DNA of 64,000 nucleotides from Erysipelotrichaceae bacterium (GCA_017441765.1 JAFRVK010000047.1:1-64000); one strand, 5' to 3'; positions 44,137-60,152 are shown, numbered from the stretch's first letter. Made by a program: numbers and translations. The notes: a model not told the origin generated them from the letters alone.

Positions 44137-44138
44137 TT

Positions 44139-44800: not shown

Positions 44801-44825
44801 AAATCCCGTCTCAAGGACGGGATTT
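44801..44825. terminator. Bidirectional terminator between convergent genes
   Basis: AAATCCCGTC (44801-44810) and GACGGGATTT (44816-44825) pair perfectly with a 5-base loop. It lies between the HAD gene and the GntR gene on the other strand. Confidence 0.88.
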
Positions 44826-45618: not shown

Positions 45619-46995
45619 TCAAAAATCATGGTTTTGTATATTTTTAGCGCCGATACGGATTTCCTCCAGCAGTTTCCTGCAGAGAAAAACCGCATGAATG
45701 ACCGACAGCCAGTCAGAAAGCGGTTGAGCATAGTAGATGCCTTTTTCCTGTAACAGTTTCGGCAGCAGAATGATAAGCGGGATATAGATCAGACCGTGAC
45801 GGCTGATGGAAAGGATCATGGATTCTTTTCCCATTCCTGCAGCCTGCAGGGAAATGGTAAGAATATAGTAAGCGGCATAGACCGGCAAGGAAACAGTATA
45901 AGCCATGATGTATCTGACGCCGTAAGCGATCGAAGCTTCATTGGCGGCGAACAATCCGATGTATTCATAGCCGTATTTCCAGATCACCGCGTCTGCCAGC
46001 AAGGAATAGGCAGTCAGTACAGAAAGGCTCAGGATCATCGATTGATAAAGACGCTGATAATTGCGGGCGCCATAGTTATAGGAAGCGAAAGGCAGATATC
46101 CGTTTGCTGCGCCTTGAATAAAGAAATTCATGAAATAAGAAGCATTCTTTCCTACAGAACAGCCTGCAACAAAGTCGGTCGAAAAAGCAAACACCTGCTT
46201 ATTGTAGATTCCGGAAGCGAAACCGGGGATCACATTTCTGACGTAGCAGGAAGCACCGACTTTTGCGATTTCCTTAACGATGTGTTTATCCATATGCAGA
46301 TCCATGAATTTCCAATACAAGGCGGTCTTATGCGAATGCAGACGGTGCAGACAAAGAACGGCAGTAAAGCCGCGGCAGAATGCTGTCGCCAGGGCTGCGC
46401 CATAAATGCCAAGGCCCAAGCCGCGGTCAAACATCAAAAGAGGGTCCAGCACGATATTGAGGACTACGCTGGCGCTGATGATGACGGTAGAATAGCGTAT
46501 GTCGCCGACGGATCGCAAAAGATGCACGGCTGTTGTCCTTATCACAAAAAAGACCATCATGACAATATCGATGATCCCGTAAATCGTGGCATAAGAAATG
46601 ACCTCTGGATCATTTGTCTGCCACAGGATGTATGGCCTTAAGACCAGGATGCCCAGAACCATATGGACAAGACTCAGGACGATGCACAAAGTCATGGATG
46701 TGCGAACTGTCTCGTATACTTTTTCCGGATCGCTTCTGGCACCCAGGATCCTTCCCAGATAGGAAGCCCCACCTATGCCGACAAAAGCACCGACCGATTC
46801 AATAAAGATATTGATAGAAACATTCGTACTCATGGCAGCGATCATTGCGCTGTTTTTTAACTGACCGACAAAGTACTGATTGATCGTGCTATAGATCAGG
46901 TCGACGACAGAAACAAGGATCGAAGGCACAGCTAAAGCGATCATCGCCTTGCCGATCTTTTCTTTTTCAAACAAATAAGTACTGTCCCGATGCAT
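45619..46995 (-). CDS. MATE-family multidrug/organic compound exporter
   Basis: A 458-aa MATE transporter with about twelve helices. The first helix region IGKAMIALAVPSILVSVVDLIYSTINQYFVG is the usual MATE opening with the conserved Asn-Gln pair, ATAFCRGFTAV and GISAxPEKVY-like ILGARSDPEKVYETVR follow. MATE proteins export cationic compounds with Na+ or H+. It is divergent from the mannose-PTS operon, and HutC-type operators lie between the two (47041-47074), so it may belong to the same regulon, perhaps exporting a released amine; that is speculative. Confidence 0.9.
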   Translation of the reverse strand: MHRDSTYLFEKEKIGKAMIALAVPSILVSVVDLIYSTINQYFVGQLKNSAMIAAMSTNVSINIFIESVGAFVGIGGASYLGRILGARSDPEKVYETVRTSMTLCIVLSLVHMVLGILVLRPYILWQTNDPEVISYATIYGIIDIVMMVFFVIRTTAVHLLRSVGDIRYSTVIISASVVLNIVLDPLLMFDRGLGLGIYGAALATAFCRGFTAVLCLHRLHSHKTALYWKFMDLHMDKHIVKEIAKVGASCYVRNVIPGFASGIYNKQVFAFSTDFVAGCSVGKNASYFMNFFIQGAANGYLPFASYNYGARNYQRLYQSMILSLSVLTAYSLLADAVIWKYGYEYIGLFAANEASIAYGVRYIMAYTVSLPVYAAYYILTISLQAAGMGKESMILSISRHGLIYIPLIILLPKLLQEKGIYYAQPLSDWLSVIHAVFLCRKLLEEIRIGAKNIQNHDF

Positions 46996-47040: not shown

Positions 47041-47096
47041 AGTATATACAAATTGATTTGATTATGTATATACAATATAATATAATAGAATATACA
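47041..47096. promoter_or_regulatory. Mannose-PTS-1 promoter with TGTATATACA operators
   Basis: TTGATT (47053-47058), 17 bases, TATAAT (47076-47081) form a strong promoter. The perfect palindrome TGTATATACA (47065-47074) lies in the spacer, AGTATATACA (47041-47050) is 24 bases away centre to centre, and ATATACA recurs at 47090-47096. GTATATAC fits the published HutC-type consensus GTMTAKAC. This is a textbook repressor layout for the nearby GntR proteins. Confidence 0.7.
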
Positions 47097-47249: not shown

Positions 47250-48035
47250 ATGAGTATTGTTCAAATTGTATTGCTGGCAGCGGCTTGCGCTTTCTGTCGT
47301 ATGGAAAGCGGATGGTTCGGCGAATGTAAATTCCGTCAGCCGATCGTCACAAGCTTTATTGTCGGCTTGATTTTAGGTGATGTTCCAAACGCACTTAAAA
47401 TCGGCGCTCAGTTCGAAATGATCTGGATGGGCGTAGCCGGTATCGGACCGGTAGCGCATCTTGACGTTACGACGGGCGGTTTCTTGGGCACTGTAATTGC
47501 TTTACAGTCAGGACAGGGATTTGAAGCGGCGATGTTGTTTGCGCTACCGGCTTCTATGATCATGCAGTTCTTAGAGAATTTCACGAATACGGCATTCGGT
47601 TACTTCGATGTTAAGATCGACAATGATGTAGAAAACGGCGTCTATGACAAAATCACTTCGACATTCCTGTTTGCCGGTGCATTAAGAGTTATTCTGGAAT
47701 TCACGGTCGTGCTGGTATTCTTGCTGGCTTCCAACGCGATTTCCGCAGCTTTGAGCAACGGCTTCCCGGTATGGCTTGAAAAAGGCTTAGGTGGCGCAGG
47801 TGTACTGTTATCTGCCTACGGATTCGCAATGCTGCTTTCGATCATGATGGAAAAAGAACTGATTCCGTTCTTTATCATCGGTTATACGCTGGCTGCATTC
47901 TCCGGCAGATCTTACAACATGATCGGTATCGGCGCGATCGGTCTTGCTTTGGCATGGATCTATTTCCTGATTGCTGACAAGCTTGGCGGCAGAAAAGCCG
48001 CTGTTGCCGATGCAGACGACGGATGGGAGGACTAA
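47250..48035 (+). CDS. PTS mannose-family EIIC
   Basis: Membrane subunit of 261 aa of a mannose/fructose/sorbose-family PTS. MSIVQIVLLAAACAFCRMES is the first helix; SFIVGLILGDVPNALKIGAQFEMIWMGVAGIGP carries the conserved LGD and E residues of the family (seen in parts). About seven helices and an acidic C-terminus. GGAGGGAGG lies upstream. It opens an operon with EIID, EIIB, two SIS proteins and EIIA. The gene content matches Salmonella gfrABCDEF, which imports fructoselysine and glucoselysine, but the substrate is not fixed by sequence. Confidence 0.94.
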   Translation: MSIVQIVLLAAACAFCRMESGWFGECKFRQPIVTSFIVGLILGDVPNALKIGAQFEMIWMGVAGIGPVAHLDVTTGGFLGTVIALQSGQGFEAAMLFALPASMIMQFLENFTNTAFGYFDVKIDNDVENGVYDKITSTFLFAGALRVILEFTVVLVFLLASNAISAALSNGFPVWLEKGLGGAGVLLSAYGFAMLLSIMMEKELIPFFIIGYTLAAFSGRSYNMIGIGAIGLALAWIYFLIADKLGGRKAAVADADDGWED

Positions 48036-48037
48036 TC

Positions 48038-48862
48038 ATGAGTGAATACATCAGTGAAAAAAATAATATTACCAAGAAAGATTTTGTAAAAACATTCTGG
48101 CGTTCTTTCCTGTTGCAGGCAAACTTCACTTATGCCAAGATGCAGGGTGTCGGCTTCTGTGTAGCCATTCAGCACATTTTACGGAAGATCTGGACAAATG
48201 ATGAAGACTACAAGAAAGCGTTGCAGAGACATCTTGCTCCATTCAACATGACGGTTGCTCCATCTCCATTGATCATGGGTATTTCCATCGCGATGGAGGA
48301 ACAGGCAAAAGAAGAGCCGGACTATGATTTTGAAGCGATCAACGCTGTCAAGGTCGCTTTGATGGGTCCGTTGAGCGGTGTCGGCGATGCCTTCTTCTGG
48401 GGAATCATCAAGCTTCTGGCTTCCGGTCTGGCTTTAGGTTTTGCTCAGGATGGCAATCCGATCGCTCCGTTCATCTTGCTGCTGGTCTTTAACGTTCCGA
48501 ACTTCTTAACCAGATGGTATGGTTTGAAGATCGGTTATGAAAGAGGACAGACTTTCCTTGGCGAACTTGAACAATCAGGCAAGCTGCAGCTTTTGACTTA
48601 CTGTGCCGGTATCTTGGGTATGGTATCTGCAGGCTGTATGATCGCGATGTGGTGCTCGATCACCTGCCCGTTGGTCTTTGAATTGGGTGGTGCTGAATTT
48701 GTGATCCAGGATACGCTGGACGAGATCTTCCCTCGCTTGCTGCCATTGCTGTTCGTGCTGTTTGACTACAACCTGATCAAGAAGGGCATGAGCTCAGGCA
48801 AGATCACGCTGCTGCTGGCTATTATCGGCTTTATATTAGGAGTATTTAATCTGATCGGTTAA
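48038..48862 (+). CDS. PTS mannose-family EIID
   Basis: Membrane subunit of 274 aa that pairs with EIIC. KKDFVKTFWRSFLLQANFTYAKMQG is the amphipathic N-terminal region, LRKIWTNDEDYKKALQRHLAPFN (as ALQRHLAPFN) and IAMEEQ the conserved middle, and VALMGPLSGVGDAFFWG the family signature; helices lie mainly in the last 110 residues. Start at ATG 48038 behind GGGAGG; an earlier in-frame codon inside the EIIC gene is not needed. Two bases separate it from EIIC. Confidence 0.94.
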   Translation: MSEYISEKNNITKKDFVKTFWRSFLLQANFTYAKMQGVGFCVAIQHILRKIWTNDEDYKKALQRHLAPFNMTVAPSPLIMGISIAMEEQAKEEPDYDFEAINAVKVALMGPLSGVGDAFFWGIIKLLASGLALGFAQDGNPIAPFILLLVFNVPNFLTRWYGLKIGYERGQTFLGELEQSGKLQLLTYCAGILGMVSAGCMIAMWCSITCPLVFELGGAEFVIQDTLDEIFPRLLPLLFVLFDYNLIKKGMSSGKITLLLAIIGFILGVFNLIG

Positions 48863-48882
48863 GCGATTGAAAGAAGAATATT

Positions 48883-49365
48883 ATGATACATCAGTATAAA
48901 ATCGATGACAGGCTGATCCATGGCATGGTCTATATGACGTGGTTCCCGAAGTTCAATATTAACCGAGCCATCATTGTCGATGATAACATCGTTAATAATG
49001 AAACAAGAAAAATGTCGCTGCGTTTGGGCATGCCGCAATCAGCGAAACTGGTTATCTGGTCTGTTGAGAAAGCAGCGGAAAAGATTCTGGGAGGAATCGA
49101 TCAGGGGAATAACGTTATCGTTATCGTCAATTCGCCGGTTTGGCTGAATGGTCTGATGGAAAAAGGCGTTGAAATCAAGGAGGTATGCTGCGGAAACTGT
49201 TCCGATAACGGCAAGGACTCCGTACAGGTTTCAGGTACCCTGTATGCCAGCAAAGAAGACGTTGAAGCCTACAAGGCGATGATCAGCAAAGGAGTCAGAT
49301 TCTATCGGCAGACGACGCCTGAAGTGACTCCTGAAGAATTGAACGACAAACTGACTAGCTTATAA
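48883..49365 (+). CDS. PTS mannose-family EIIB
   Basis: Cytosolic EIIB of 160 aa. The phospho-His is His13 in IDDRLIHGMV, and WFPKFNINRAIIVDD and KMSLRLGMP follow as in EIIB-Man/Sor. The Cys-rich stretch VCCGNCSDNGKDS (about residues 103-115) is unusual: family members carry a substrate or contact loop here, normally without three Cys. GAAAGAAGAA precedes ATG. EIIA for this system is encoded two genes downstream. Confidence 0.93.
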   Translation: MIHQYKIDDRLIHGMVYMTWFPKFNINRAIIVDDNIVNNETRKMSLRLGMPQSAKLVIWSVEKAAEKILGGIDQGNNVIVIVNSPVWLNGLMEKGVEIKEVCCGNCSDNGKDSVQVSGTLYASKEDVEAYKAMISKGVRFYRQTTPEVTPEELNDKLTSL

Positions 49366-49379
49366 AGAAAGGAAACATT

Positions 49380-50480
49380 ATGGGAAGCGAACAACCTACA
49401 GTATTGGGATACATGAGGACACAGCCTGAAGTTTTAAGATCTGTTTATGCAAACAGACAGGCTTTTACGGAACCATTTATAGAATACTTTGTAAAGAAGG
49501 AGATCAGAAAAGTGATCTTCTTCGGTTCAGGAACTTCCTATAATGTTTCTCATATCGCAGCTTATTATTTTAAACATCTGGTTGGAATAGATGCTGAGGC
49601 GCAATATCCGACAGTATACCTGAACTATGAATGTGCCAACAGAAATCATTATATTGAAGATGCGCAGATTCTTTGTGTCGGTATATCCCAATCCGGGACA
49701 TCTATTTCAACCGTACAGATGATGGATCACGCCAGAAAAAAGGGTTATTCGACCCTGGCTCTGACGGGCGATATTAACAGTGAAATCACCAGGCATGTCG
49801 ATGTCGTATGCCACCTTCTGGTAGGAGACGAACTGACCCCGCCGGAGACCAAAGGCTATACGACATCCGTCATCAGCACGTATCTGTGGGCGCTGGAATT
49901 ATGCAGAGCGATCAAAAAAATAAGTGATGAAGAGTATCGGAACGCCTGTGCGGAACTGGAAGACATGCTGGCTGATTTTGAAAATGTCGTTGCCGACAGC
50001 GAAGCGTGGTATGAAAGAATCAAAGCGGCCATATTGAACAGCAATCGCATTTATGTGCTTGGTTATGGCATCGATTATGGTTCGATGCTGGAAGGAACTT
50101 TGAAGATCTCCGAGATGTTGCGCTATCCGACAGTCGCCTGCGAACTGGAGGAGTTCATGCACGGTCTCACCACGACACTGAAAAAGGATGTCACGATTCT
50201 TATGATCGGCAGCGATGAAAAAGAACGGAACAGGATGCTGGAAATGCGTCAGGCATTCAAAAAGTATACGGATCGTGTATTTGTGATTTCCTGCGGGAAT
50301 CTGATCGATGATCCGACAGAAACGGATATTGTTTTTAAGAAGAGCTACAACAAGTACATTGCTCCGCTGGCTTATACGGTACCGATGCAGTTTATCGGAG
50401 CCAAAGGCGCGAAAGATATAGGAATCGATACCAATATCTGGCCGTTTACCGAGCTCAGCGGACATTTGGAGGAAGAATAA
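49380..50480 (+). CDS. SIS-domain deglycase/isomerase 1 (GfrE/GfrF-like)
   Basis: Double-SIS protein of 366 aa of the GlmS-isomerase/AgaS/FrlB group. First SIS domain: FFGSGTSYNVSHI and VGISQSGTSISTV, the phosphosugar-binding Ser/Thr loops. Second: LGYGIDYGSMLEG and the catalytic-region ELEEFMHGLTT. Such enzymes release ammonia or an amino acid from an amino-sugar or Amadori phosphate. It sits inside the PTS operon between EIIB and EIIA, so its substrate should be the phosphorylated import product. It is paralogous to the protein encoded at 56.1-57.2 kb, sharing ETKGY/ETRGY and ISDEEY/ISDEDY blocks. AAAGAAAGGA precedes ATG. Confidence 0.9.
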   Translation: MGSEQPTVLGYMRTQPEVLRSVYANRQAFTEPFIEYFVKKEIRKVIFFGSGTSYNVSHIAAYYFKHLVGIDAEAQYPTVYLNYECANRNHYIEDAQILCVGISQSGTSISTVQMMDHARKKGYSTLALTGDINSEITRHVDVVCHLLVGDELTPPETKGYTTSVISTYLWALELCRAIKKISDEEYRNACAELEDMLADFENVVADSEAWYERIKAAILNSNRIYVLGYGIDYGSMLEGTLKISEMLRYPTVACELEEFMHGLTTTLKKDVTILMIGSDEKERNRMLEMRQAFKKYTDRVFVISCGNLIDDPTETDIVFKKSYNKYIAPLAYTVPMQFIGAKGAKDIGIDTNIWPFTELSGHLEEE

Positions 50481-50903
50481 ATGATAGGATTTATTGTTAC
50501 CGGGCATGGCAATTTTGCCAGCGGGATCACTTCGGCTGTTACTTTGGTTACAGGCATTGAAGATGGTGTGATCGCCTGTGATTTTGATGACATGTCGTCA
50601 TTCGAATCGATCAGGACGAAACTTGAGAAAGCCGTAGAGGATCTGAAAGATTATGATGATATCGTTATTTTCTGTGATCTGTTAAGCGGGACGCCTTTTA
50701 ATCAGGCTCTGGATATGAAGGTGAGCAGCGGAACAGACAGGATCCATATCGTCTATGGTTCGAATCTACCTTTACTGATCGAAGCGATACTGGCAGGAAC
50801 CAATGGAGCAGATATGGATAGGATCAATGAAATTGTGGAAATGGCAAAGACAAGCATTGGCAAGGTAGAAGATCGCAATGTCAGTGATGAAGATGATTTC
50901 TGA
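50481..50903 (+). CDS. PTS mannose-family EIIA
   Basis: Phosphocarrier of 140 aa. The phospho-His is His9 in FIVTGHGNFASGI; CDLLSGTPFNQAL (about residue 68-80) is the second conserved segment, and VYGSNLPLLIEAIL the third. The ATG directly follows the stop of the SIS gene, with GGAGGA inside that gene's end as ribosome site. It is the only mannose-type EIIA in the window and would have to serve the second PTS too, unless another is encoded elsewhere. Confidence 0.93.
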   Translation: MIGFIVTGHGNFASGITSAVTLVTGIEDGVIACDFDDMSSFESIRTKLEKAVEDLKDYDDIVIFCDLLSGTPFNQALDMKVSSGTDRIHIVYGSNLPLLIEAILAGTNGADMDRINEIVEMAKTSIGKVEDRNVSDEDDF

Positions 50904-50928
50904 TTTAAAGAAACAGAAGGAGACACAA

Positions 50929-52035
50929 TTGGAAGAAAAGAAAGTATCAATGATCGATTATGTGCAGCAGACACCTGCACAAGTCAGATATAACGTTGAA
51001 AGAAGCAAAGAGCTGACACAGTCTCTTGTTGACGAATATATAAAAAAGGATTTTAGAAGGATACTGATCGTTGCCTGCGGATCATCGAACAATGGTTCAA
51101 GATGCGGTCAGCCTTTCTTGCAGATGATTACCAAAAAAGAAGTACAGGTGATTCCGCCATTCACTTTTGTGCATTTTTTTGATAACGTCGATGAGAATGA
51201 CTTTGTCGTGGTCGTTTCTCAATCCGGCCGCAGTACGAACGCGATCGAAGCGCTGGAACTGTTAAAAGAGAAAGGGCTCAGAACCATCGGCATCACTTCT
51301 GATGTCAACAGTGATTTTAAAGATATCTGTGATCTGACGATCGACTGGGGTGTAGGCAAGGAAACTGTCGGCTATGTCACCAAAGGCGTAGTCACGCTGG
51401 CAGAGTATTTCATGCTGTTTGGCATCGAAGCACAGCTGAAAAAAGGCGAAATCAGCGAAGAAACGGCAGAAGAGTACAAGAACGAGATCCTTAAGGCTAT
51501 GACTGCGCATGAACAGCTGCAGGATTCCGCATTGAAATACATCGATTCTCATGTGAAAGAATTATATAATCTGCAGGAGCTTTATGTGATATCTGCTGGA
51601 GCAAACATGGGTACGGTTAATGAAGCGGCATTAAAGATTTCAGAAACCGTAAAGATCCACGCGACAGCCTATGAATGTGAAGAATTCCTGCATGGCCCTT
51701 TGTATCCGATGACACCGAAGTATACGCTACTGGCTTACGATACCGCCAATAAAAAAGCCAACGAAAGAATCGAAGCCATTTATGCAGCCGCCAAAGAAGT
51801 ATGCGTACAGCCGATTCTGGTAAGGTGTGGAAGCTGCCAAGATCCCGACGTCATCAGCACCGATGTTGAGCTGATAGATGAAGTCATGCCTTTGGCGTAT
51901 CTGGCTGTCGCACCTCTGTTAGGCGATTTCGCCAGCAAGAGACTGACGGTCGAGGAACATCCGCTTCTTGAAGAATTCCAGAAAAAACTGGCAACCAAGA
52001 GCAAAAAATATCCGAAAGAATTCGGACAGTGGTAA
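50929..52035 (+). CDS. SIS-domain deglycase/isomerase 2 (GfrE/GfrF-like)
   Basis: Double-SIS protein of 368 aa starting with a TTG codon: AAGGAG lies six bases upstream of 50929, whereas the in-frame ATG codons at 50878 and 50887 sit inside the EIIA gene without a ribosome site. Motifs: VACGSSNNGSRCG, VVSQSGRSTNAIEAL, then SAGANMGTVNEAALKI and ECEEFLHGPLYPM (catalytic region with Glu and His). It closes the first PTS operon, before a terminator. Together with SIS 1 it repeats the gfrE/gfrF pair. Substrate presumably a 6-phosphorylated amino-sugar or Amadori compound. Confidence 0.9.
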   Translation: MEEKKVSMIDYVQQTPAQVRYNVERSKELTQSLVDEYIKKDFRRILIVACGSSNNGSRCGQPFLQMITKKEVQVIPPFTFVHFFDNVDENDFVVVVSQSGRSTNAIEALELLKEKGLRTIGITSDVNSDFKDICDLTIDWGVGKETVGYVTKGVVTLAEYFMLFGIEAQLKKGEISEETAEEYKNEILKAMTAHEQLQDSALKYIDSHVKELYNLQELYVISAGANMGTVNEAALKISETVKIHATAYECEEFLHGPLYPMTPKYTLLAYDTANKKANERIEAIYAAAKEVCVQPILVRCGSCQDPDVISTDVELIDEVMPLAYLAVAPLLGDFASKRLTVEEHPLLEEFQKKLATKSKKYPKEFGQW

Positions 52036-52040
52036 ATAAG

Positions 52041-52065
52041 AACAGAATGCCAGAGGCATTCTGTT
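52041..52065 (+). terminator. Terminator after the first PTS operon
   Basis: AACAGAATGCC (52041-52051) and GGCATTCTGTT (52055-52065), loop AGA, followed by TGTTTT. It separates the PTS operon from the FrlB/FrlD-like pair, although partial readthrough is likely because the next ribosome site follows closely. Confidence 0.85.
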
Positions 52066-52083
52066 TGTTTTAAGGAGGAACTC

Positions 52084-53082
52084 ATGATTAATTTTGATGA
52101 ACAGACAATCATTAGAAACTATGCATATATCTATGATAAGCGCAGGGAAATCGAAACGATAGCGGACGATCTTTGTGCCAAAGGTTTCGATCTGCTGTTT
52201 TTTACTTCATCCGGCGGATCAATGGCGATGATGCAGCCGTTTGAGCACTACATCAATGTCTATTCCCGGATCCCGACAGACAGTCAGATATCCGCAGATT
52301 TTCTCTTGACCGGCTGCAACAGGCTGACAGACCGAAGCGTCGCTTTCATGACTTCAAAATCAGGAAATACTAAAGAGACGATCGCATGTGCGAAGAAACT
52401 GAAAGAAATGGGAGTCAGGATCGTATCGGTATGCGGCGTAGAGAACAGCGAGCTGGCCGCTCTTTCCGATTATACTTTTACCTATCTGGATGGACGTCCG
52501 CAGGAACTGGTCTTCTATTTCATCGTAGGCAAGATCTTGTATCATCAGGGTTATTTTCCGGAATATGAAGAGTTCGCTGATAACCTGAAAGATCTGGGTG
52601 CCGCCTTGGCAAAAGTCAGGATCGCTTGCGATGACAAATGCAAGGATTATGCGGAAAAATACTGCAGAGAGCCTTATCATATCTGGATCGGTTCGGGAGA
52701 TCTGTGGCCAAACGCCTATTCCTATTCCATGTGCGTGTTAGAAGAATCGCTCTGGATCAGGACCAAATCCGTCAGTTCCGCTGAATTTTTCCATGGTACT
52801 TTGGAGCTGGTAGAGAAGGACGTGCCGGTAACGCTGATCATGGGCGAGGGAGTCACCAGGAGCCAGGACGAAAGGGTGAAGCATTTTGTCGAACCGCTTA
52901 CGGATAAATTCACCTGTTTTGATACCTGCGATTATGAGCTGGAAGGCATCAAAGATGAATATCGCAAATATCTTTCTCCGGTCGTCATGTCAGCCATCCT
53001 GCAAAGGATCGGAAAGAATATGGAAGTCATAACCGGACATTCTTTGGATATCAGAAGATATTATAGAAAGAGCGAGTATTAG
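52084..53082 (+). CDS. FrlB-like fructoselysine-6-phosphate deglycase
   Basis: Double-SIS protein of 332 aa, the one closest in look to E. coli FrlB (fructosamine 6-phosphate deglycase). Shared features from memory: AEFFHGTLELVEKDVPVTLIMG against FrlB EFRHGPLEIVE, RVKHFVEPLTDKF, and the ending DIRRYYRKSEY matching FrlB RRYYGGLVEY. First SIS loop is unusual (FTSSGGSMAMM) and the second is MTSKSGNTKET. AAGGAGG precedes ATG. It is two bases from the FrlD-like kinase, so the pair forms a kinase-deglycase unit. Amadori-type substrate is well supported; which amino acid is attached is not. Confidence 0.85.
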   Translation: MINFDEQTIIRNYAYIYDKRREIETIADDLCAKGFDLLFFTSSGGSMAMMQPFEHYINVYSRIPTDSQISADFLLTGCNRLTDRSVAFMTSKSGNTKETIACAKKLKEMGVRIVSVCGVENSELAALSDYTFTYLDGRPQELVFYFIVGKILYHQGYFPEYEEFADNLKDLGAALAKVRIACDDKCKDYAEKYCREPYHIWIGSGDLWPNAYSYSMCVLEESLWIRTKSVSSAEFFHGTLELVEKDVPVTLIMGEGVTRSQDERVKHFVEPLTDKFTCFDTCDYELEGIKDEYRKYLSPVVMSAILQRIGKNMEVITGHSLDIRRYYRKSEY

Positions 53083-53083
53083 G

Positions 53084-53947
53084 ATGAGAAGCGTATGTGT
53101 CGGCGATAATGTGATCGATTATTACGTCAACAGCAAGAGGATGTATCCGGGTGGAAACAGTGTCAATGTCTCTGTTCATCTGGCCAGACTGAAGGCGGAA
53201 TCGTCCTATCTGGGGAATCTTGCTGATGACATGATGGCGGAGGTCATCGTAAGAGCGTTGGATGCGAATCATGTCGATCATTCGCGCTGTAAGCAGATCG
53301 AAAATGCGACAACCAAGCATTGCAACTACGAGATCATCGATGGGGAACGAAGATTCATCAGTGTCGATACAGGAGATCGCTGGTCCGGGCCGATGGAACT
53401 GACAGAAGAACTGCTGGATTATATCGGAGGCTTTGATGTCGTCATCAGCAACTGCAATGCCAAGATGCAGGATGAAATGTCCAAGATCAGTCGCTTGGAT
53501 GTCCTGTATGTCTATGATTTCGGTGAAAAAGAAAAATACCACGCCGAGGAATATCTGGATAAGGTGTGTACGAATCTGGATCTGGCAATGTTTTCTTTTC
53601 CTGAGACCAGCGAAGATGAATTGAGATCATTTGCGAACAAGATCATCGGCAAGGGCTGCCGGAATGTGCTTATCACGATGGGTAGGAACGGCCAGTATCT
53701 GATCAACAGCGAGCTGGAGGTCCATGGCGACGCGCAGTATGTCGAGGCTGTTGATACGATGGGAGCCGGCGATTCTTTTCTTGCGGCCTTTGTCAATGAA
53801 GCGTATGAATCGGGCTGGAAGAAGAATATGATTTTGGATAAAGAAACAATAGAAAAAGCCTTGAATAAGGCTTCCCGGTATTCCTGTGAAAACTGTTTAA
53901 GTGAAGGAGGGTTCGGCTACGAAATCAGCGAAACGGCACTGCTGTAG
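53084..53947 (+). CDS. FrlD-like fructoselysine 6-kinase (PfkB family)
   Basis: Ribokinase-fold kinase of 287 aa. VCVGDNVIDYYVN with YPGGNSVNVSVHLARL is the N-terminal pattern shared with FrlD; VYDFGEKE gives the central DF-x-x motif, and VDTMGAGDSFLAAFVNEAYESGW the ATP-binding anion hole with the catalytic Asp (about residue 225). FrlD is 261 aa; this one is slightly longer at the C-terminus. It lies two bases after the FrlB-like gene. A cytosolic kinase is not needed for a PTS-imported compound, so this pair may use an unphosphorylated substrate delivered by another route. Confidence 0.85.
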   Translation: MRSVCVGDNVIDYYVNSKRMYPGGNSVNVSVHLARLKAESSYLGNLADDMMAEVIVRALDANHVDHSRCKQIENATTKHCNYEIIDGERRFISVDTGDRWSGPMELTEELLDYIGGFDVVISNCNAKMQDEMSKISRLDVLYVYDFGEKEKYHAEEYLDKVCTNLDLAMFSFPETSEDELRSFANKIIGKGCRNVLITMGRNGQYLINSELEVHGDAQYVEAVDTMGAGDSFLAAFVNEAYESGWKKNMILDKETIEKALNKASRYSCENCLSEGGFGYEISETALL

Positions 53948-53964
53948 GCGATATCGGAACCTGT

Positions 53965-55032
53965 TCAGATCCTTGTTTCGACAAGTTCGGTAAATTCATT
54001 ATTGGCATCGCGGTTCGGATCAAGGCCGTTCAGCTCAGGCGCATAAGCGCTGATGATCTGTATGAATTCCAGAATAATCAGCACAGATTCCGTCAGCGGA
54101 TAATTCTCAACATGCATGACTGTGGCATCGCTGTTTTCGCTGCCGGTTTCGATCATGAACACTTTTGCGATATCTTTAAAGTAATCGAAAATGCTTTGAG
54201 CCAGTTTCCCGTTCTGATCCGTTCTGATCAGCAAAAGACTGGTATCTTTATTGACCGACCTGTGTGTCCCATGTGAGAATTCTTCGCTGTCGACGGCACA
54301 AGTCGGAATGCACATGGTTTCCATGACTTTGATCTGCGCTTCCAAAGCCAGACCGTAATTCATATCGGAACCGATAATGTATAAATGATCCATCCCTAGA
54401 CCAAAAGCGTTGTTTCTGGCGAATTCAATACTTCTTTTTTTGACTTCTGCCAAGCTGTCGCACTGGCTGGACAGTTCACGAACGATCTCTTCTTTTGTAT
54501 CTTCTGTAAGATGATGATTCAAATGGCCGATGCAGGTCGCCAGAAGAAGCAGAACCAGAATCGTTGAGCTCATGCCTTTGGTTTTGGCATTGCTGTCTTC
54601 CTCGCCGCAGTTCAGGGGAAGAAAGAAATCGGTATATCGTTTTAATGCCGCCGAATCGTCCGCCGAAATACCCAGGGTCTTCAGATGATATTCTCTTGCC
54701 AATTCTGCGCTTTGCAAAGTACCTCTGCTGTTTCCGGTCTGAGAGATAAGGACGATCAGTGTACTTTCCGGATCCAGTAAGGCAGCCAGCTCTTTTGACG
54801 GTATGAAGTTGCCTGCGGTGATGCAACTGACATTCACATGTGCATATCTGCGAAAGAATGGCATTACCGTAACAGAAGCGTTGTAGGAACTGCCATGAGA
54901 GACGCAGTAGATCGTCTTGTATCCTTTGATCTGTCTGGCAAGTTCGTAAATGTCTTCCCGATCAAAATTCCGATGTAAAACATCCTGTTCCTCATCGATA
55001 TAATTCCACATGACGCTTTCAAACAGTTTCAT
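53965..55032 (-). CDS. SIS-domain deglycase/isomerase 4
   Basis: Double-SIS protein of 355 aa. First domain: CVSHGSSYNASVTVM and VLISQTGNSRGTLQSAELA; second: YIIGSDMNYGLALEAQIKVME and the Glu/His region VDSEEFSHGTHRSV. AAGGGGG lies upstream of ATG 55032. It is convergent with the FrlD-like gene (17-base gap without a clear hairpin) and is controlled by a TGTATATACA operator beside its -10 box. It is clearly in the FrlB/GfrE/AgaS group, but its second His-containing loop (SHGTHR) differs from the HGP or HGL of its neighbours, hinting at a different substrate. Confidence 0.87.
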   Translation of the reverse strand: MKLFESVMWNYIDEEQDVLHRNFDREDIYELARQIKGYKTIYCVSHGSSYNASVTVMPFFRRYAHVNVSCITAGNFIPSKELAALLDPESTLIVLISQTGNSRGTLQSAELAREYHLKTLGISADDSAALKRYTDFFLPLNCGEEDSNAKTKGMSSTILVLLLLATCIGHLNHHLTEDTKEEIVRELSSQCDSLAEVKKRSIEFARNNAFGLGMDHLYIIGSDMNYGLALEAQIKVMETMCIPTCAVDSEEFSHGTHRSVNKDTSLLLIRTDQNGKLAQSIFDYFKDIAKVFMIETGSENSDATVMHVENYPLTESVLIILEFIQIISAYAPELNGLDPNRDANNEFTELVETRI

Positions 55033-55072
55033 TTTTGTTTCCCCCTTATCATTGAATCGCTATCTACAGTTT

Positions 55073-55089
55073 ATCATATGTATATACAT
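55073..55089 (-). promoter_or_regulatory. Promoter and operator of the SIS 4 gene
   Basis: Minus-strand -10 TATGAT (55073-55078) adjoins ATGTATATACAT (55078-55089), a perfect 12-base palindrome containing the same TGTATATACA decamer as 47065-47074. The operator lies in the promoter spacer. Confidence 0.6.
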
Positions 55090-55170
55090 AATAAAAATAT
55101 TACATATACATATAACGATCCAGGAAGACATTATGTCAGATGTGATTCTGAATGAGGTGGACATTTAAAA

Positions 55171-55190
55171 AAACGCCTGAAAAGGCGTTT
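55171..55190 (-). terminator. Terminator of the GntR gene
   Basis: AAACGCCT (55171-55178), loop GAAA, AGGCGTTT (55183-55190); on the minus strand seven T residues follow. It ends the transcript of the GntR gene 31 bases upstream. Confidence 0.85.
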
Positions 55191-55221
55191 AAATCACAGC
55201 GATGTATGATAACCGATCTAT

Positions 55222-55995
55222 TCAGGCATTCTTGTCGCTGCCGTGTCTGATCGTTTTCATATAGATATCATCCCCGGTATCTTCATGATCCCTGTTGATC
55301 ACGATTGACATGCGCTCATCAAGATAATAGTGCGTGGTGATTTCAAACGGTTTGTTTGCATAGCGCCAGAAGATCTTCTGTCTGAGCAACGCTTTATTGG
55401 TAGAACCGATGATTTCAGCCTGCCTTTCATCAGGAAGGGCTGCAGAGAATTCCGTGTAGCCGGAAGACCGTTTCATGCCCAGCTCATTGAGATAGGCATT
55501 AAATGAATGCTGCAGGCAGCGGATGTCGAGCGAAGGCAATAAAGCATAATTGATATAAGTATAAGACAGGACAACCGGTTTTCCATCGCCGGTTCTGAGT
55601 CTAACGAAATAATGAATGAATTCGTCTTCTGCGACATTCAGTTCTTTTGCGATCTGTTTATTGTCTTTGCCTTGGATGATCTCATATTCCAGTAGTTCTG
55701 AACCCGGTTCCATGCCAAAGGCTCTGATTTCATCAGAAAGGGAGTGTTTACGGATCAGATCCCGTTCAGGATCGATGTAGGCATCATCTACAAAACTGCC
55801 GTTTCCCGGAACCCTTCTGATGTAGCCTTTATTGGACAGATTGGTCATGGCTTTGTATACGGTCATCCTGCTGGTAGAAAAGGTATCACAAAGATCTGCT
55901 TCGCTTGGCAGCAGCTGATTCAGTACATAGGTACCGTTTTCTATGTTTCTGATAAAGAAATCTTCAATCTGTGAATATTTGGCTTTTCTACCCAT
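55222..55995 (-). CDS. GntR/HutC-family regulator
   Basis: A HutC-type repressor of 257 aa. Winged helix about residues 3-68 (YSQIEDFFIRNIENG, STSRMTVYKAMTNLSNKGY, VPGNGSFVDD); UTRA from about 85 with FVRLRTGDGKPVVLSYTYI and EFSAALPDE. The start is placed at ATG 55995 by alignment with the sister protein at 44.8 kb (both read xKYxQIEDFFI); ATG 56004 is possible. No good Shine-Dalgarno sequence is seen, so it may depend on readthrough from the SIS 5 gene just upstream. Its recognition helix is nearly the same as in the sister, implying a common TGTATATACA operator. Confidence 0.9.
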   Translation of the reverse strand: MGRKAKYSQIEDFFIRNIENGTYVLNQLLPSEADLCDTFSTSRMTVYKAMTNLSNKGYIRRVPGNGSFVDDAYIDPERDLIRKHSLSDEIRAFGMEPGSELLEYEIIQGKDNKQIAKELNVAEDEFIHYFVRLRTGDGKPVVLSYTYINYALLPSLDIRCLQHSFNAYLNELGMKRSSGYTEFSAALPDERQAEIIGSTNKALLRQKIFWRYANKPFEITTHYYLDERMSIVINRDHEDTGDDIYMKTIRHGSDKNA

Positions 55996-56024
55996 TGTCT
56001 TCATAAATCGTACCACAAACAAAG

Positions 56025-56053
56025 AACAAGCGCCACATTCCGTGGCGTTTGTT
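56025..56053 (-). terminator. Terminator/attenuator between SIS 5 and GntR
   Basis: CGCCAC (56031-56036) and GTGGCG (56042-56047), extended by AACAA and TTGTT arms after a one-base mismatch. On the minus strand it lies between the SIS 5 stop and the GntR start; the T tract is weak, so partial readthrough could supply GntR. Confidence 0.65.
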
Positions 56054-57157
56054 TCAATCTCTAGGCATGTGTCCGGAAATGCTTCTGTCTTTGATCGGGC
56101 TGACTTTCGTATCGATTCCTATCGCTTCGCAAAGAAGTGCCGACAGCACCTGGTATGGAGTGACGTAGACGATCGTTGAAAGCAGATCGTTTGTCCTGAC
56201 AGAATATTTCAAGTCTTTCTCCGTTACTTCGATATCCTCACAGGTTGTAACAAAGACGTGTTCTGTAAAGACACGGCGATAGTAAGCTGCGACGTCGACA
56301 GCCCGTTTGAGTTCAAAATCGCCTTCCGAAGCGATCATGAACACATAGTTCCTGTCGTTATATGCACGTAACGGTCCATGAAGCTGTTCCTCCTGTTCGT
56401 AGTACATGCATGGTCTGGCATAGGTTTCAAAGAATTTAAGCCTTCCTTCCTGAGCAGTCGGCCAGTTGTTGCCATAGCCGCAGATGGAAGATTTTTCCAT
56501 CTTCAGGAATTCATCCATATTGCGATTGACCCAGTCTTCCGTCTCGCTGATGACGACAGGCATATCTTCGATCAGCTTACGGGCATCGGCATCCAGCCTC
56601 TCGTAGTCTTCGTCGCTGATCCTTCCAAGCACTTTGGCCAGTTCAAGAGCGATCAGATAGAACTGGAACAGCGTTTCGCTGTAGCCTCTTGTTTCAGGAC
56701 CGATCTCTTCCCTTTCACAAAGCAGATACACGGTCTGATCGGTGATTTTCGTGACAGGCGAATCGACTGCCTCGGTAACAGCAACTGTCAGATGTCCCAG
56801 ATCCTTCGCTCTCGTTAAGGCATCGCAAGTGGAAATGCTGTCACCATGCTGAGTCAGACCGAATACAGCGATCTGGTCGTTGCCGAAGATACCGCTGGGA
56901 TTCGTGTTTTCATGATAAGTAAATACATTTGGCTCCGGCGCATAAGCTTCGACTTTAACCAGGTCCATAAACAGATTCCTCATGACCAGGCTTGCATTAT
57001 GAGAAGTGCCGGATCCCAGGAAATAGACTTTTTTAATATCGTGATTCGTAAAAAGTTCCACCATCTGAGGAACATACTCGTTTTTATTATCGTATGCTTT
57101 CTTTAAAACCCTGGGAATATCCCTGATATGCCCGATCATTGAAAGAACTTCAGCCAT
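56054..57157 (-). CDS. SIS-domain deglycase/isomerase 5
   Basis: Double-SIS protein of 367 aa, paralogue of SIS 1. FLGSGTSHNASLVM is the first phosphosugar loop. The second, normally SQSGxS, reads FGLTQHGDSIST: two of the phosphate-binding positions change. The catalytic region is EQEEQLHGPLRAY. ETRGYSETLFQF and ISDEDYERL match SIS 1. AGGAGG precedes ATG 57157. It is divergent from the second PTS and the two share a control region rich in HutC-type operators. The loop changes may alter substrate or leave a sensing role. Confidence 0.88.
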   Translation of the reverse strand: MAEVLSMIGHIRDIPRVLKKAYDNKNEYVPQMVELFTNHDIKKVYFLGSGTSHNASLVMRNLFMDLVKVEAYAPEPNVFTYHENTNPSGIFGNDQIAVFGLTQHGDSISTCDALTRAKDLGHLTVAVTEAVDSPVTKITDQTVYLLCEREEIGPETRGYSETLFQFYLIALELAKVLGRISDEDYERLDADARKLIEDMPVVISETEDWVNRNMDEFLKMEKSSICGYGNNWPTAQEGRLKFFETYARPCMYYEQEEQLHGPLRAYNDRNYVFMIASEGDFELKRAVDVAAYYRRVFTEHVFVTTCEDIEVTEKDLKYSVRTNDLLSTIVYVTPYQVLSALLCEAIGIDTKVSPIKDRSISGHMPRD

Positions 57158-57202
57158 TGTTGTTTCCTCCTATATTTAATGGATAAGTAGTAGCGCAACT
57201 TA

Positions 57203-57303
57203 ATTATATGGTATAAATATACAATTTGTAAATAGTAAATATATACTTTAATGATTTATTAGTATATATTTACTATTGACATAAGTATATATTTGCATAT
57301 ACA
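57203..57303. promoter_or_regulatory. Divergent SIS 5 / PTS-2 promoters with inverted-repeat operators
   Basis: Plus strand: TTGACA (57276-57281), 16 bases, TATACA (57298-57303). Minus strand: TTTACA (57227-57232), 18 bases, TATAAT (57203-57208). AATAGTAAATATATACT (57231-57247) and AGTATATATTTACTATT (57261-57277) are a perfect 17-bp inverted repeat overlapping the plus -35. GTATA-AA-TATAC (57211-57222) lies in the minus spacer, GTATAT-N6-ATATAC (57285-57302) in the plus spacer. Confidence 0.7.
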
Positions 57304-57347
57304 ATTGTCTCATAAGTATAGCGCAATACAAAGGGGAGGTAATTATC

Positions 57348-57851
57348 ATGGTAGATCTAGTAAGAGTGGATGGAAGACTCATTCATGGAATGATCGTCGT
57401 TACCTGGTGCGGGGTACTTCATCCGGATATTCTGGCAGTAGCGAACGATGCCGCGGCTAACGATGAAATCCACAAGATGACTCTTAAACTAGCGAAACCC
57501 GGTAATGTAGAACAATGCCTGGTTTGGACGCTTGATAAGGCTGTTGCAAAACTACAGGAAGAAAAGTTCATCCGGAAGAAAGTGTTCTTAACTGTTGCTA
57601 CCGTAGAAGATGCCTATTACATTATCAAAAGAGTTCCGACGATCAAGAGATTGAACATCGGTCCTGAAGTAGATGGTGAAAAAGGCAGAGATACAACGGG
57701 TAAGACAGAGATCAGTGACGGAGTATATACCAGCACTGAAAAGTTTGTGTTATTGAAGGAATTGCATGACGATGGAGTCGAAGTGTTTGCCCAGATCACT
57801 CCTGCCATGTCTAAAACTGATTTTGCAGAGTTTGCAAAGAAATTTGAGTAA
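57348..57851 (+). CDS. PTS mannose-family EIIB (second system)
   Basis: Cytosolic EIIB of 167 aa. The phospho-His is His13 in RVDGRLIHGMI; VTWCGVLHPDILAVANDAAAND and KLAKPGNVEQ follow, and LNIGPEVDGEKGRDTTGK gives the contact loop. It resembles EIIB of the sorbose/N-acetylgalactosamine branch. AGGGGAGG precedes ATG. It opens a three-gene PTS (EIIB-EIIC-EIID) with no EIIA beside it. It lacks the Cys-rich loop of the first EIIB. Confidence 0.93.
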   Translation: MVDLVRVDGRLIHGMIVVTWCGVLHPDILAVANDAAANDEIHKMTLKLAKPGNVEQCLVWTLDKAVAKLQEEKFIRKKVFLTVATVEDAYYIIKRVPTIKRLNIGPEVDGEKGRDTTGKTEISDGVYTSTEKFVLLKELHDDGVEVFAQITPAMSKTDFAEFAKKFE

Positions 57852-57865
57852 AGGAGAAATAATTT

Positions 57866-58609
57866 ATGGTTTTTAAAGCATTTCTGGTTGCTTTGGTAGC
57901 CTTCTATGGTCGTGTGGAACAGGGCTGGTTCGGTCAGCAGATGATCGCGAGACCGATATGGCTCTGTACCCTAGTTGGATTGCTGCTTGGCGATCTACAG
58001 CAGGGCGTCATTATTGGAGGAACGCTTGAACTCATATGGGCAGGTGTCGTTCAGGTCGGAGCTACTCCAACAGAAGTCGTTACCGGTTCGACAGTTGCAT
58101 GCGGTTTGGCGATCATCAATAATTTATCGGTTGCTGAAGCTGTTACGATCGCTATCCCTGTCGGTCTGCTGGCAACAGTATTGAATGAATTGAATGGCAC
58201 GCTCGTTATGATGACTTGGTCACCAATGGCGAATGCGGCTGTTGAAGAGTGTGATACGAAGAAAATCTGGTGGTGCGGTATTGCCGGAGAACTGACCAGA
58301 GCTACATTGCTGGCGCTTGCAACGTTCATCGCTGTTTCTGCAGGTAGTGTGGCCGTCAACGCGGTGATCGATGCCATTCCGGACAAGATCAGACTTGGCT
58401 TGCAGAATGCCAGCAAGATCCTGCCGGCGATCGGTATCGGTGTCCTGATGCAGTTCGCATTTGATATGAAATATGTTGGATTCTTCTTGTTAGGATTTAT
58501 CCTTCCAACATATATGGGCTTTGGAAGTGTAGCTTGTGCGTTTGTCGGTGTAGTCGCAGCGCTGATCTACTTCTTCTTAAAACCAAATCAGGTAGAGGAG
58601 GATGACTAA
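57866..58609 (+). CDS. PTS mannose-family EIIC (second system)
   Basis: Membrane subunit of 247 aa. FLVALVAFYGRVEQGWFGQQMIARPIW is the start of the fold, LLLGDLQQGVIIGGTLELIWAGVVQVGATPTEV the signature region with the conserved Glu (seen in parts). The sequence ATPTEVVTGSTVACGLA belongs to the sorbose/GalNAc-type branch. Acidic C-terminal tail VEEDD. AAAGGAG precedes ATG, 14 bases after EIIB. Substrate is unknown. Confidence 0.93.
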   Translation: MVFKAFLVALVAFYGRVEQGWFGQQMIARPIWLCTLVGLLLGDLQQGVIIGGTLELIWAGVVQVGATPTEVVTGSTVACGLAIINNLSVAEAVTIAIPVGLLATVLNELNGTLVMMTWSPMANAAVEECDTKKIWWCGIAGELTRATLLALATFIAVSAGSVAVNAVIDAIPDKIRLGLQNASKILPAIGIGVLMQFAFDMKYVGFFLLGFILPTYMGFGSVACAFVGVVAALIYFFLKPNQVEEDD

Positions 58610-58610
58610 T

Positions 58611-59429
58611 ATGTCAGAAGAAAGAATCCAATTAACTAAAAAAGAATTAATGCCGGTATTCTGGCGTTCATACCAGGCTCTGGGTTGTTATTCATACGAT
58701 AAGCAGCAGGGTATCCCTTACCTTCGCGCGATGGTTCCAGCTTTGGAAAAACTCTATCCGGATCAGGACAGATTCAAAGAAGCTTTGAGAAGACACAACA
58801 CAATGTTCAATACCACTTGCGCATTCGTCCCGTTCTGCTTGGGTATCTCCTGCGCGATGGAAGAAGAATATGCCAACGATACGACCGGTACGATGGATCC
58901 GGAATCGATCGGTGCCGTCAAGATCGCGCTGATGGGTCCTTTGGCCGGTATCGGCGACAGTTTCTTCTGGGGCACGTTCAGACTGATTGCCTGCGGTATC
59001 GGCGCGCCGATGGCTGCAGAAGGAAACATCATCGGTGTCTTCCTGTATCTGATTCTTAACCTGGTACCTTCAACGTTAACGCGCTGGTACGGCTTCAAGC
59101 TCGGCTATGAGGGCGGTCGTCAGTTCCTGGCAAGGATTCAGGCGGATGGAACGCTGGCAAAACTGACTGAAGCGTCAAGAGTACTTGCAATGGTGGTTAT
59201 CGGTGGCATGATTCCGCAGATCGTAAAATTCCCCCTTGCTCTTACGCTGGAAATGGGTGGCGGTACCTTTGTCTTACAAGACGTGGTCAATCAGATCATG
59301 CCGAACCTCCTGCCGCTGCTGTTATCGATCACTGTATACAGGTTGATAATGAAAGGCACCAAGACAAACGTCATCATCTTTGCGTTGCTGGCGTTAGGCA
59401 TAATCTTAACCCTTCTTGGAATCATGTAA
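58611..59429 (+). CDS. PTS mannose-family EIID (second system)
   Basis: Membrane subunit of 272 aa. LTKKELMPVFWRSYQALGCYSYDKQQG is the N-terminal amphipathic part, LRRHNTMFNTTCAFVPFCLGISCAMEEE the middle (LRRHNTMFNTT), and VKIALMGPLAGIGDSFFWGTF the signature. Helices occupy roughly the last 110 residues. Start chosen at ATG 58611 with GAGGAGGA about ten bases upstream; ATG 58602 would lie too close to the ribosome site. It begins just after the EIIC stop (1-base gap). A terminator follows, so the PTS forms one transcript. Confidence 0.93.
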   Translation: MSEERIQLTKKELMPVFWRSYQALGCYSYDKQQGIPYLRAMVPALEKLYPDQDRFKEALRRHNTMFNTTCAFVPFCLGISCAMEEEYANDTTGTMDPESIGAVKIALMGPLAGIGDSFFWGTFRLIACGIGAPMAAEGNIIGVFLYLILNLVPSTLTRWYGFKLGYEGGRQFLARIQADGTLAKLTEASRVLAMVVIGGMIPQIVKFPLALTLEMGGGTFVLQDVVNQIMPNLLPLLLSITVYRLIMKGTKTNVIIFALLALGIILTLLGIM

Positions 59430-59474: not shown

Positions 59475-60152
59475 ATGAATCATTTAACTGTAATTGTTCT
59501 CATTATTTTTGTTGCACTGCTTCTTTCTGTCGTGATCAGGCAGCTTTTTTTGAATCGATTAAGCCGGCAGCTCTATGATGCGGCTTATGTCAAGAAAGAT
59601 AAGGAGCTGTTTGAATTGCTGATTGGATCGCCGCAAGCAAAGATGGTTATGTCTAACGTATCAAGAGAGATCATGCTTTTGAATTTCTATCTCAGTATCG
59701 ATGATGAGGCATGCGTGACCGATACCGTTCAAAAACTGATGAAACAAAGAACGAACCTGAAAGAAGCACAGACGATCTATCCGGCTTCGATCGGCTATCT
59801 TTGCGAGAAGGGAAATCCTGCCACTCTGGACGTGCTTAATGATCTCAAGAAGAAATATGCGGATTCAAAGGATCTGAATATGCTGCTGATGATTTATGAC
59901 TGTGAACTTGCCTGTGATGTTTATATACGGAAAGACAAAGGCAGGATCAGCGATCTTGAAGAACTGTTGAAGGCGGATATTGATCTGAACAGTCGCGCCA
60001 TCTATCAGTACCGCCTGGCGAAACTGTATGATTATGATGGAAATCGAGAAAAAGCAAGGCAATTGTTGGCTGAAGCAAGAAGCAATACGCAGGATAAGAA
60101 CGCAAAAAAGAAAATCGACAAGATATTACAAGGCGATTGGGATCTTTTATGA
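59475..60152 (+). CDS. Membrane-anchored TPR-like protein, unknown
   Basis: A 225-aa protein with one N-terminal helix (about residues 5-24, VIVLIIFVALLLSVVI) and then a helical cytosolic part. LYDAAYVKKDKELFELLIGSPQAK, IYPASIGYLCEKGNPATLDVLNDL and IYQYRLAKLYDYDGNREKARQLLAEA show the A/G/Y spacing of tetratricopeptide-like repeats, clearest in the last one. No family recognised. Its only ribosome site is poor (TTCTGTTG before ATG). The HAD phosphatase overlaps its stop by four bases (ATGA), so the two are expressed together. Confidence 0.65.
   Translation: MNHLTVIVLIIFVALLLSVVIRQLFLNRLSRQLYDAAYVKKDKELFELLIGSPQAKMVMSNVSREIMLLNFYLSIDDEACVTDTVQKLMKQRTNLKEAQTIYPASIGYLCEKGNPATLDVLNDLKKKYADSKDLNMLLMIYDCELACDVYIRKDKGRISDLEELLKADIDLNSRAIYQYRLAKLYDYDGNREKARQLLAEARSNTQDKNAKKKIDKILQGDWDLL

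Follow-up and report, generated by a model that had tools for sequence, protein, structure and literature searches.

A composite locus of five double-SIS proteins, two mannose-family permeases and an FrlD-like kinase, probably for the catabolism of several glycated amines, in an Erysipelotrichaceae bacterium

The DNA analyzed here is a 64,000-nucleotide stretch (the window; GCA_017441765.1, JAFRVK010000047.1:1-64000) of a metagenome-assembled genome (MAG) from an uncultured gut bacterium of the Erysipelotrichaceae, and its subject is an island at 47.25-59.4 kb that holds five intact open reading frames (ORFs) for double-SIS proteins (SIS1 to SIS5), two mannose-family phosphotransferase system (PTS) permeases and a PfkB/FrlD-like kinase. 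All five SIS ORFs score above the Pfam SIS cut-off in a profile scan, and the gene content named in the original prediction (five distinct SIS proteins, EIIABCD, a second EIIBCD and a kinase) is confirmed. We consider it probable that three Gfr-like modules are assembled here into one catabolic locus whose targets are several glycated amines: fructosamines of the Amadori type and related conjugates in which a glucosyl or other sugar is joined to an amine. Use of multiple substrates is the reading that the data support best, and an amino-sugar role for two of the modules (A and C, defined below) is its chief rival. Gene content, families, catalytic residues and module structure were computed. 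The five SIS genes together cover 7.8 kb, in a source MAG of 1.5 Mb that is 77% complete and contains 17 SIS matches in total; the functional unit extends beyond the island, to roughly 43.4-60.8 kb.

The families of the SIS proteins were assigned from a tree of 79 proteins and from a second tree in which AgaS was included. The reference groups each occupy one side of a branch in the first tree: FrlB/FraB/GfrF (branch values 100/99), GlmS/NagB-II (100/95) and the GfrE group (100/98). SIS3 lies inside the GfrF-type subclade (100/99) of the FrlB/FraB/GfrF clade, while SIS1, SIS2, SIS4 and SIS5 fall within the GfrE group, yet outside the GfrE/Lmo0035 clade, and none of the five is a GfrE orthologue in this tree. 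The latter four form three separate clades, represented by SIS2, by SIS4 and by SIS1 plus SIS5, with SIS1 and SIS5 as sister clades. Including AgaS left this grouping unchanged: AgaS itself sat at the end of a very long branch, outside all window proteins. Membership of the GlmS/NagB-II family is rejected by the separate clade and by the C-terminal lysine motif of GlmS and NagB-II (AKSVTVE, NKVTET), which the alignment and motif check found in none of the five SIS proteins; AgaS membership is rejected by a best profile score of 33.9 bits versus a cut-off of 529 as well as by the tree. The outcome that the original prediction had named as fatal to it, all five proteins grouping with AgaS or GlmS-like enzymes, is therefore not what the trees return.

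The GfrE and GfrF references stem from a Klebsiella locus (L027; L numbers denote compared loci) with a sigma-54 regulator, EIIA-B-C-D, SIS and SIS, beside opgB and dnaTC, which is read as a probable gfr operon because of the way its genes are ordered and because its second SIS protein is close to PDB 2a3n, which we take to be the Salmonella GfrF protein. A Deinococcus protein (L162, best matched as NagB-II but below the NagB-II cut-off) together with PDB 7kqa and 3fj1 represented NagB-II; two plasmid-derived outgroup candidates for this family turned out to be full-length GlmS and were excluded from use.

Each of the five SIS proteins carries a Glu and a His 16 residues apart (E...16...H), aligned to E214 and H230 of FraB, in which the E214A substitution gives a catalytically inactive enzyme (PMC12755824). 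The matching Glu/His pair of PDB 9ou6 stands at 234 and 250, and since a shift of 20 residues is what a 345-residue form would show against the 325-residue FraB numbering (PMC9609667), we infer that 9ou6 is FraB. The loop and segment motifs named in the original prediction are only approximately right: SIS1 reads GSGTS/SQSG, SIS2 ACGSS/SQSG, SIS3 SSGGS/SKSG, SIS4 SHGSS/SQTG and SIS5 GSGTS/TQHG, and the E-E-x-x-HG segment is AEFFHG in SIS3. Alignment along the SIS1-SIS2 half of GlmS backs the double-SIS architecture, and the AlphaFold models of SIS1 and SIS4 have 2aml (Lmo0035) and 3g68 (CD3275) as their best folds (template modelling (TM) scores of 0.85-0.91; model confidences in Table 1).

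The island is called composite because its three modules occur apart in relatives: module A comprises PTS1, SIS1, SIS4, an HAD phosphatase and a GntR regulator, module B comprises SIS2, SIS3 and the kinase, and module C comprises SIS5, PTS2, a TPR-like protein, a second HAD phosphatase and a GntR regulator. A Gfr-type PTS and a kinase are indeed combined in one locus, as originally proposed, but the proposed single Gfr-like design with two extra SIS genes gives way to this threefold structure. Module A stands in L063, L064 and L065 as GntR, IIC-IID-IIB-SIS1 and then IIA and SIS4, and in L063 and L064 the run also includes the HAD gene; in the window it is rearranged, GntR and HAD standing off at 43399-44795 and SIS4 being inverted at 53965. 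The SIS3-kinase pair of module B is found in L021, L024, L057, L058, L060, L101, L103 and Liquorilactobacillus hordei, with a SIS2-type gene nearby in L058, L060, L101 and L103. Module C occurs in L059 and L062, where SIS5 is divergent from IIB2-IIC2-IID2-TPR-HAD, and SIS1 and SIS5 types share one operon in L036. Of the named genomes, those nearest to the locus, with ~86% identity for SIS3, are MAGs of Erysipelotrichaceae or Firmicutes obtained from roe deer, sheep and goat, and an assembly with the label RUG521. L022 and L023 preserve the order IIC-IID-IIB-SIS1-IIA-SIS2-SIS3-KIN, a core arrangement that also marks MAGs of other ruminants, so that chance or misassembly does not explain the island; L023 additionally has SIS4 and a SIS5 relative.

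Several of these neighborhoods support the deglycation of sugar-amine conjugates as the common theme. In the single-contig genome of L069, a GfrR-like regulator, GfrA-D relatives (53-60% for IIB, IIC and IID), a GfrF-type SIS gene and a SIS2-type gene follow in succession, which places SIS2 in the second deglycase position of a Gfr operon. L101 has SIS2-type, kinase, GfrF and PTS genes (IIB-IID 46-54%) in one run; L057 has the SIS3-kinase pair next to an amino-acid permease that matches FrlA weakly. Gene fusions point the same way, with HAD fused to SIS2 in L105 (6956-8686) and to the kinase in L060 (10219-11718) and L103 (2577-4034), tying the HAD phosphatase to deglycase and kinase alike. 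In L103 the SIS2-type gene is divergent from SIS3-type, kinase and PTS genes.

PTS1 is complete (EIIC, IID, IIB, IIA; 47250-50903), whereas PTS2 consists of IIB, IIC and IID (57348-59429) without an EIIA of its own. The kinase gene directly follows SIS3, an adjacency kept in L021-L024, L057, L058 and L060. FrlD is the best NCBIfam match of the kinase, though its score falls short of the equivalog cut-off (Table 1); the kinase is 28% identical to FrlD and 31% to the L. hordei kinase that adjoins a GfrF-type SIS gene. Searched at an E value of 1e-35 in 295 genomes of the phylum, it matched only in the source genome and in genome G033, and its distribution was therefore traced via gene neighborhood. 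The combination of kinase, GfrF-type deglycase and mannose PTS is not unique, being shared with the L. hordei plasmid, L060, L101 and L103, and a kinase beside a PTS would make most sense if some conjugates enter unphosphorylated. Separately, L067, L068 and L075, from the same genus, carry an expanded frl operon (in L067: FrlA 52%, two FrlD 42% and 36%, FrlC 53% and a GfrF-type SIS), and the genus therefore has true frl systems that are distinct from the kinase of the window.

Substrates, direction of flux, kinase role and regulation are what we infer in the following scheme. PTS1 and PTS2 would bring conjugates into the cell, with phosphorylation of the sugar at C6, and the EIIA for PTS2 would come from PTS1 or another system. 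SIS3 would cleave fructosamine-6-phosphate to glucose-6-phosphate and a free amine or amino acid, and SIS2 would perform the equivalent task on a second conjugate, like GfrE in Salmonella, while SIS1, SIS4 and SIS5 may handle further conjugates with other sugar or amine parts. The kinase would phosphorylate conjugates that arrive unphosphorylated by a non-PTS route and pass them to SIS3; the HAD enzymes may process or detoxify phosphorylated intermediates, and the GntR/UTRA repressors would act on TGTATATACA-type sites. Read from the sequence, the locus could then be a 'generalist' system for several conjugates, as first suggested.

Some results weigh against a catabolic system for glycated amines. 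No SIS protein of the island reaches an NCBIfam equivalog cut-off (SIS3 scores 83.7 bits against FrlB, with a cut-off of 430), and SIS1, SIS2, SIS4 and SIS5 are just 20-28% identical by BLAST to any reference with an assigned function. PTS enzyme I (EI) was not found in the 77% complete source MAG; because it is present in 25/25 relatives, its absence is taken as an assembly gap. Finally, distant SIS4 relatives have a GH4 glycosidase and a PTS_EIIC gene as immediate neighbors (L118:4627-8191, L119:7033-10589), which hints at glycoside-derived substrates or a SIS-dependent glycoside pathway.

This last neighborhood also favors the chief rival, a mixed locus in which SIS2, SIS3 and the kinase would act on Amadori compounds and modules A and C (SIS1, SIS4, SIS5 and the PTSs) would encode deaminases or isomerases of hexosamine phosphates or their derivatives. 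We regard it as unlikely, if still the foremost alternative. Modules A and C stand without any GfrF/FrlB-clade gene on the examined stretches of L059, L062, L063, L064 and L065, and the PTS1 EIIA scores best, below cut-off, against the galactosamine EIIA AgaF. However, SIS1, SIS4 and SIS5 group with GfrE and not with GlmS/NagB-II or AgaS, they are devoid of the lysine motif shared by GlmS and NagB-II, and in L066 a SIS1 gene directly precedes a GfrF-like operon.

Slightly less credible to us is a bolder form of the glycated-amine reading, in which the SIS1/SIS5, SIS2 and SIS4 clades would be three new deglycase specificity classes, each for glycated amines that bacteria are not yet known to feed on. 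HAD enzymes would be their partners, together with a TPR-like membrane protein at the PTS, and MATE/EamA exporters would remove the amine once it is stripped off, leaving only the sugar to be eaten. Among the compared proteins, no enzyme of known substrate falls in any of these clades. The literature on Salmonella STM0572/STM0573 function and on Erysipelotrichaceae Amadori use yielded nothing on them, in a search that covered mostly non-subscription papers, so that a prior description is possible.

It is improbable that the five SIS proteins and two PTSs are redundant copies, all serving fructoselysine and glucoselysine and providing dosage or a spread of affinities rather than new substrates. 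A Salmonella gfrF mutant does keep residual growth on fructoselysine, for which relaxed GfrE specificity has been suggested (PMC12675984), but the five SIS proteins are mutually only 20-31% identical where BLAST detects similarity, they belong to separate clades that are each conserved across species, and they accompany different PTS sets; recent dosage duplicates would be more alike. Least plausible is that SIS3 and the kinase serve in repair, as a pair clearing glycated amino acids formed inside the cell, with only the PTS modules being catabolic: the pair does occur without a mannose PTS on the stretches examined of L021 and L024, and SIS3 is set off from SIS2 by a conserved terminator-like hairpin, but the pair lies inside a mannose-PTS operon in L060, L101, L103 and L. 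hordei and beside an amino-acid permease in L057.

The features of the wider unit, on which the preferred reading of a multi-substrate glycated-amine locus draws, are collected in Table 1. The start of SIS2 was set at 50929, which 368-residue orthologues fit, over an alternative earlier ATG at 50878.

Table 1. Features of the composite locus, in window coordinates (pLDDT, predicted local distance difference test)
Feature	Position	Strand	Evidence
GntR-type regulator, original partner of module A	43399..44136	+	63-69% to GntR immediately before IIC-IID-IIB-SIS1 in L063-L065
HAD phosphatase, beta-phosphoglucomutase-type, module A	44139..44795	+	52-53% to HAD inside SIS1-SIS4 operon of L063, L064; NCBIfam PGMB-YQAB-SF subfamily below cut-off
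GntR/UTRA (HutC-type) regulator	44824..45537	-	HutC-type profiles all below cut-off; 67% at same place in L022/L023
Putative MATE-type exporter, divergent from PTS1	45619..46995	-	Called by reading the sequence; 73-74% at same place in L022/L023
Two TGTATATACA-type operator-like sites before PTS1	47041..47074	+	Pattern matches; motif kept upstream of IIC1 in L022, L023
EIIC, mannose-family PTS1	47250..48035	+	33% to Klebsiella GfrC
EIID, PTS1	48023..48862	+	38% to Klebsiella GfrD
EIIB, PTS1, RLIHG active-site His	48883..49365	+	26% to Klebsiella GfrB; pts-sorbose profile 85 bits, below cut-off
SIS1, GfrE-group deglycase-like	49380..50480	+	Tree clade 100/100, SIS5 as sister; model pLDDT 90.5, best fold 2aml
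EIIA, PTS1, only EIIA of the island	50481..50903	+	Pfam EIIA-man over cut-off; AgaF profile 107 bits, below cut-off
SIS2, GfrE-group, own clade	50929..52035	+	Tree 100/99-100
Terminator-like hairpin between SIS2 and SIS3	52041..52065	+	11-bp arms, then TTTGTTTT-like run
SIS3, probable GfrF-type fructosamine-6-phosphate deglycase	52084..53082	+	FrlB/FraB/GfrF clade 100/99; 38% to Klebsiella GfrF; PDB 2a3n/8glr 244 bits
PfkB kinase, FrlD-like, DTMGAGDS motif	53084..53947	+	Pfam PfkB 100 bits; best NCBIfam match FrlD 122.7 bits, cut-off 247
SIS4, GfrE-group, own clade	53965..55032	-	Tree; ends SIS1 operon in L063-L065; model pLDDT 89.7
Perfect TGTATATACA operator-like site upstream of SIS4	55079..55088	+	Pattern match
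GntR/UTRA regulator, module C	55222..56022	-	Pfam GntR and UTRA over cut-off; 77% in L059 beside SIS5
SIS5, GfrE-group, sister of SIS1	56054..57157	-	Tree; 83-84% in L059, L062, same module
Inverted repeat GTATAT-N6-ATATAC between SIS5 and PTS2	57285..57303	+	
EIIB, PTS2	57348..57851	+	31% to Klebsiella GfrB
EIIC, PTS2	57866..58609	+	32% to Klebsiella GfrC
EIID, PTS2	58602..59429	+	39% to Klebsiella GfrD, 40% to PTS1 EIID
Membrane-anchored TPR-like protein	59475..60152	+	No Pfam match; relatives in or ending other SIS/mannose-PTS operons
HAD phosphatase, module C	60137..60844	+	61-71% at same place in L059, L062

The TPR-like protein belongs to a membrane-anchored family of about 200-226 residues that is found in the Gfr-like SIS/mannose-PTS operons of L059, L062, L065, L066, L069-L072 and L100. 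The 12 best-scoring loci of this family all adjoin SIS, HAD or mannose-PTS genes, with weaker members elsewhere; the protein is not exclusive to these operons, as the wider family is present, in many contexts, in half of the order's genomes. Exporters likewise recur in or beside the operons (MATE in the window, with weak relatives at L101 and L105; EamA in L060 and L065) and possibly expel the freed amine.

Allowing at most one mismatch, TGTATATACA occurs 8 times in the window versus 0.9 expected, the sites including two before PTS1, one before SIS4, one between SIS5 and PTS2 and one before the GntR gene at 44824; the motif is taken as a lead, since A-T-rich promoters can mimic it. A scan for GTATAT-N6-ATATAC with two mismatches allowed gave 4 matches, a number reached by 3/100 shuffles and thus weak alone, with the copy at 57285 being the sole perfect one. 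The hairpin between SIS2 and SIS3 is T-tailed, and L022 and L023 have hairpins of different sequence in this position, which suggests a conserved partial terminator. No ORF of the size of a GfrR-type sigma-54 activator was found at 43-62 kb, where there are GntR/UTRA genes instead.

Two further observations concern related systems. Another SIS gene of the source MAG (G000), on contig C7, forms a single run together with mannose-PTS IIB, IIC and IID (L116:6213-9481). In addition, L073:12361-18726 and L105:6956-15499 hold a sigma-54-type regulator, EIIA-D and SIS genes 43-47% identical to Salmonella STM0572, a candidate second Gfr-like system in the order.

Sugar-amino-acid conjugates arise when sugar reacts with protein, and heated feed and food are rich in the resulting Amadori products. 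To our knowledge, only a handful of deglycases for phosphorylated Amadori compounds (FrlB, FraB, GfrE and GfrF) have assigned substrates. Systems of the gfr/frl kind are already known; what is new here is the present combination. The SIS1/SIS5, SIS2 and SIS4 clades are three further GfrE-group clades that recur beside mannose PTSs in this bacterial order, ruminant gut MAGs included. As the locus places these clades beside a GfrF-type anchor, their substrates are directly testable. It also shows that systems of this kind are built from exchangeable modules, and links to them two unexplained partners, the HAD enzymes and the TPR-like membrane protein.

Among known systems, Salmonella gfrABCDEF is a fructoselysine/glucoselysine system according to PMC12675984 (citing Miller et al. 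2015). The island shares with it a mannose-family PTS (A-D) and double-SIS deglycases, one of them GfrF-type (SIS3 is 38% identical to the Klebsiella L027 copy), but differs in that it has five SIS genes, two PTSs and a kinase, is equipped with GntR/UTRA regulators where Salmonella has a sigma-54 activator, and lacks a GfrE orthologue. E. coli frlABCD and Bacillus subtilis frl have in common with the island a deglycase gene adjoining an FrlD-like PfkB kinase, whereas SIS3 is nearer to GfrF than to FrlB, the kinase is only 28% identical to FrlD and below its cut-off, and the locus has no FrlA or FrlC. With no GfrE orthologue and a kinase below the FrlD cut-off, the Salmonella and E. coli substrates are therefore not simply transferable to the island. 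The Salmonella fra system for fructose-asparagine shares the catalytic Glu/His pair of FraB, the SIS3 superclade and an operon kinase (FraD), but SIS3 lies in the GfrF subclade and not with FraB, and fra uses the transporter FraA and is not known to involve a mannose PTS (PMC12755824), unlike the island. The seven-gene GFR operon of Faecalibacterium prausnitzii, also a gut Firmicute, has a Gfr-like PTS, GfrF and a regulator unlike that of Salmonella; it is a single module without GfrE, and the available portion of its description mentions no kinase or multiple SIS genes (PMC12136445). L. hordei pL11822-2 (L029) differs in having a sigma-54 regulator fragment and no GfrE-group SIS gene in the annotated stretch, and shares with the island EIIA-B-C-D, a SIS protein (48% to SIS3) and a PfkB kinase (31%), in that order on the plasmid, with a second GfrF-type SIS gene nearby.

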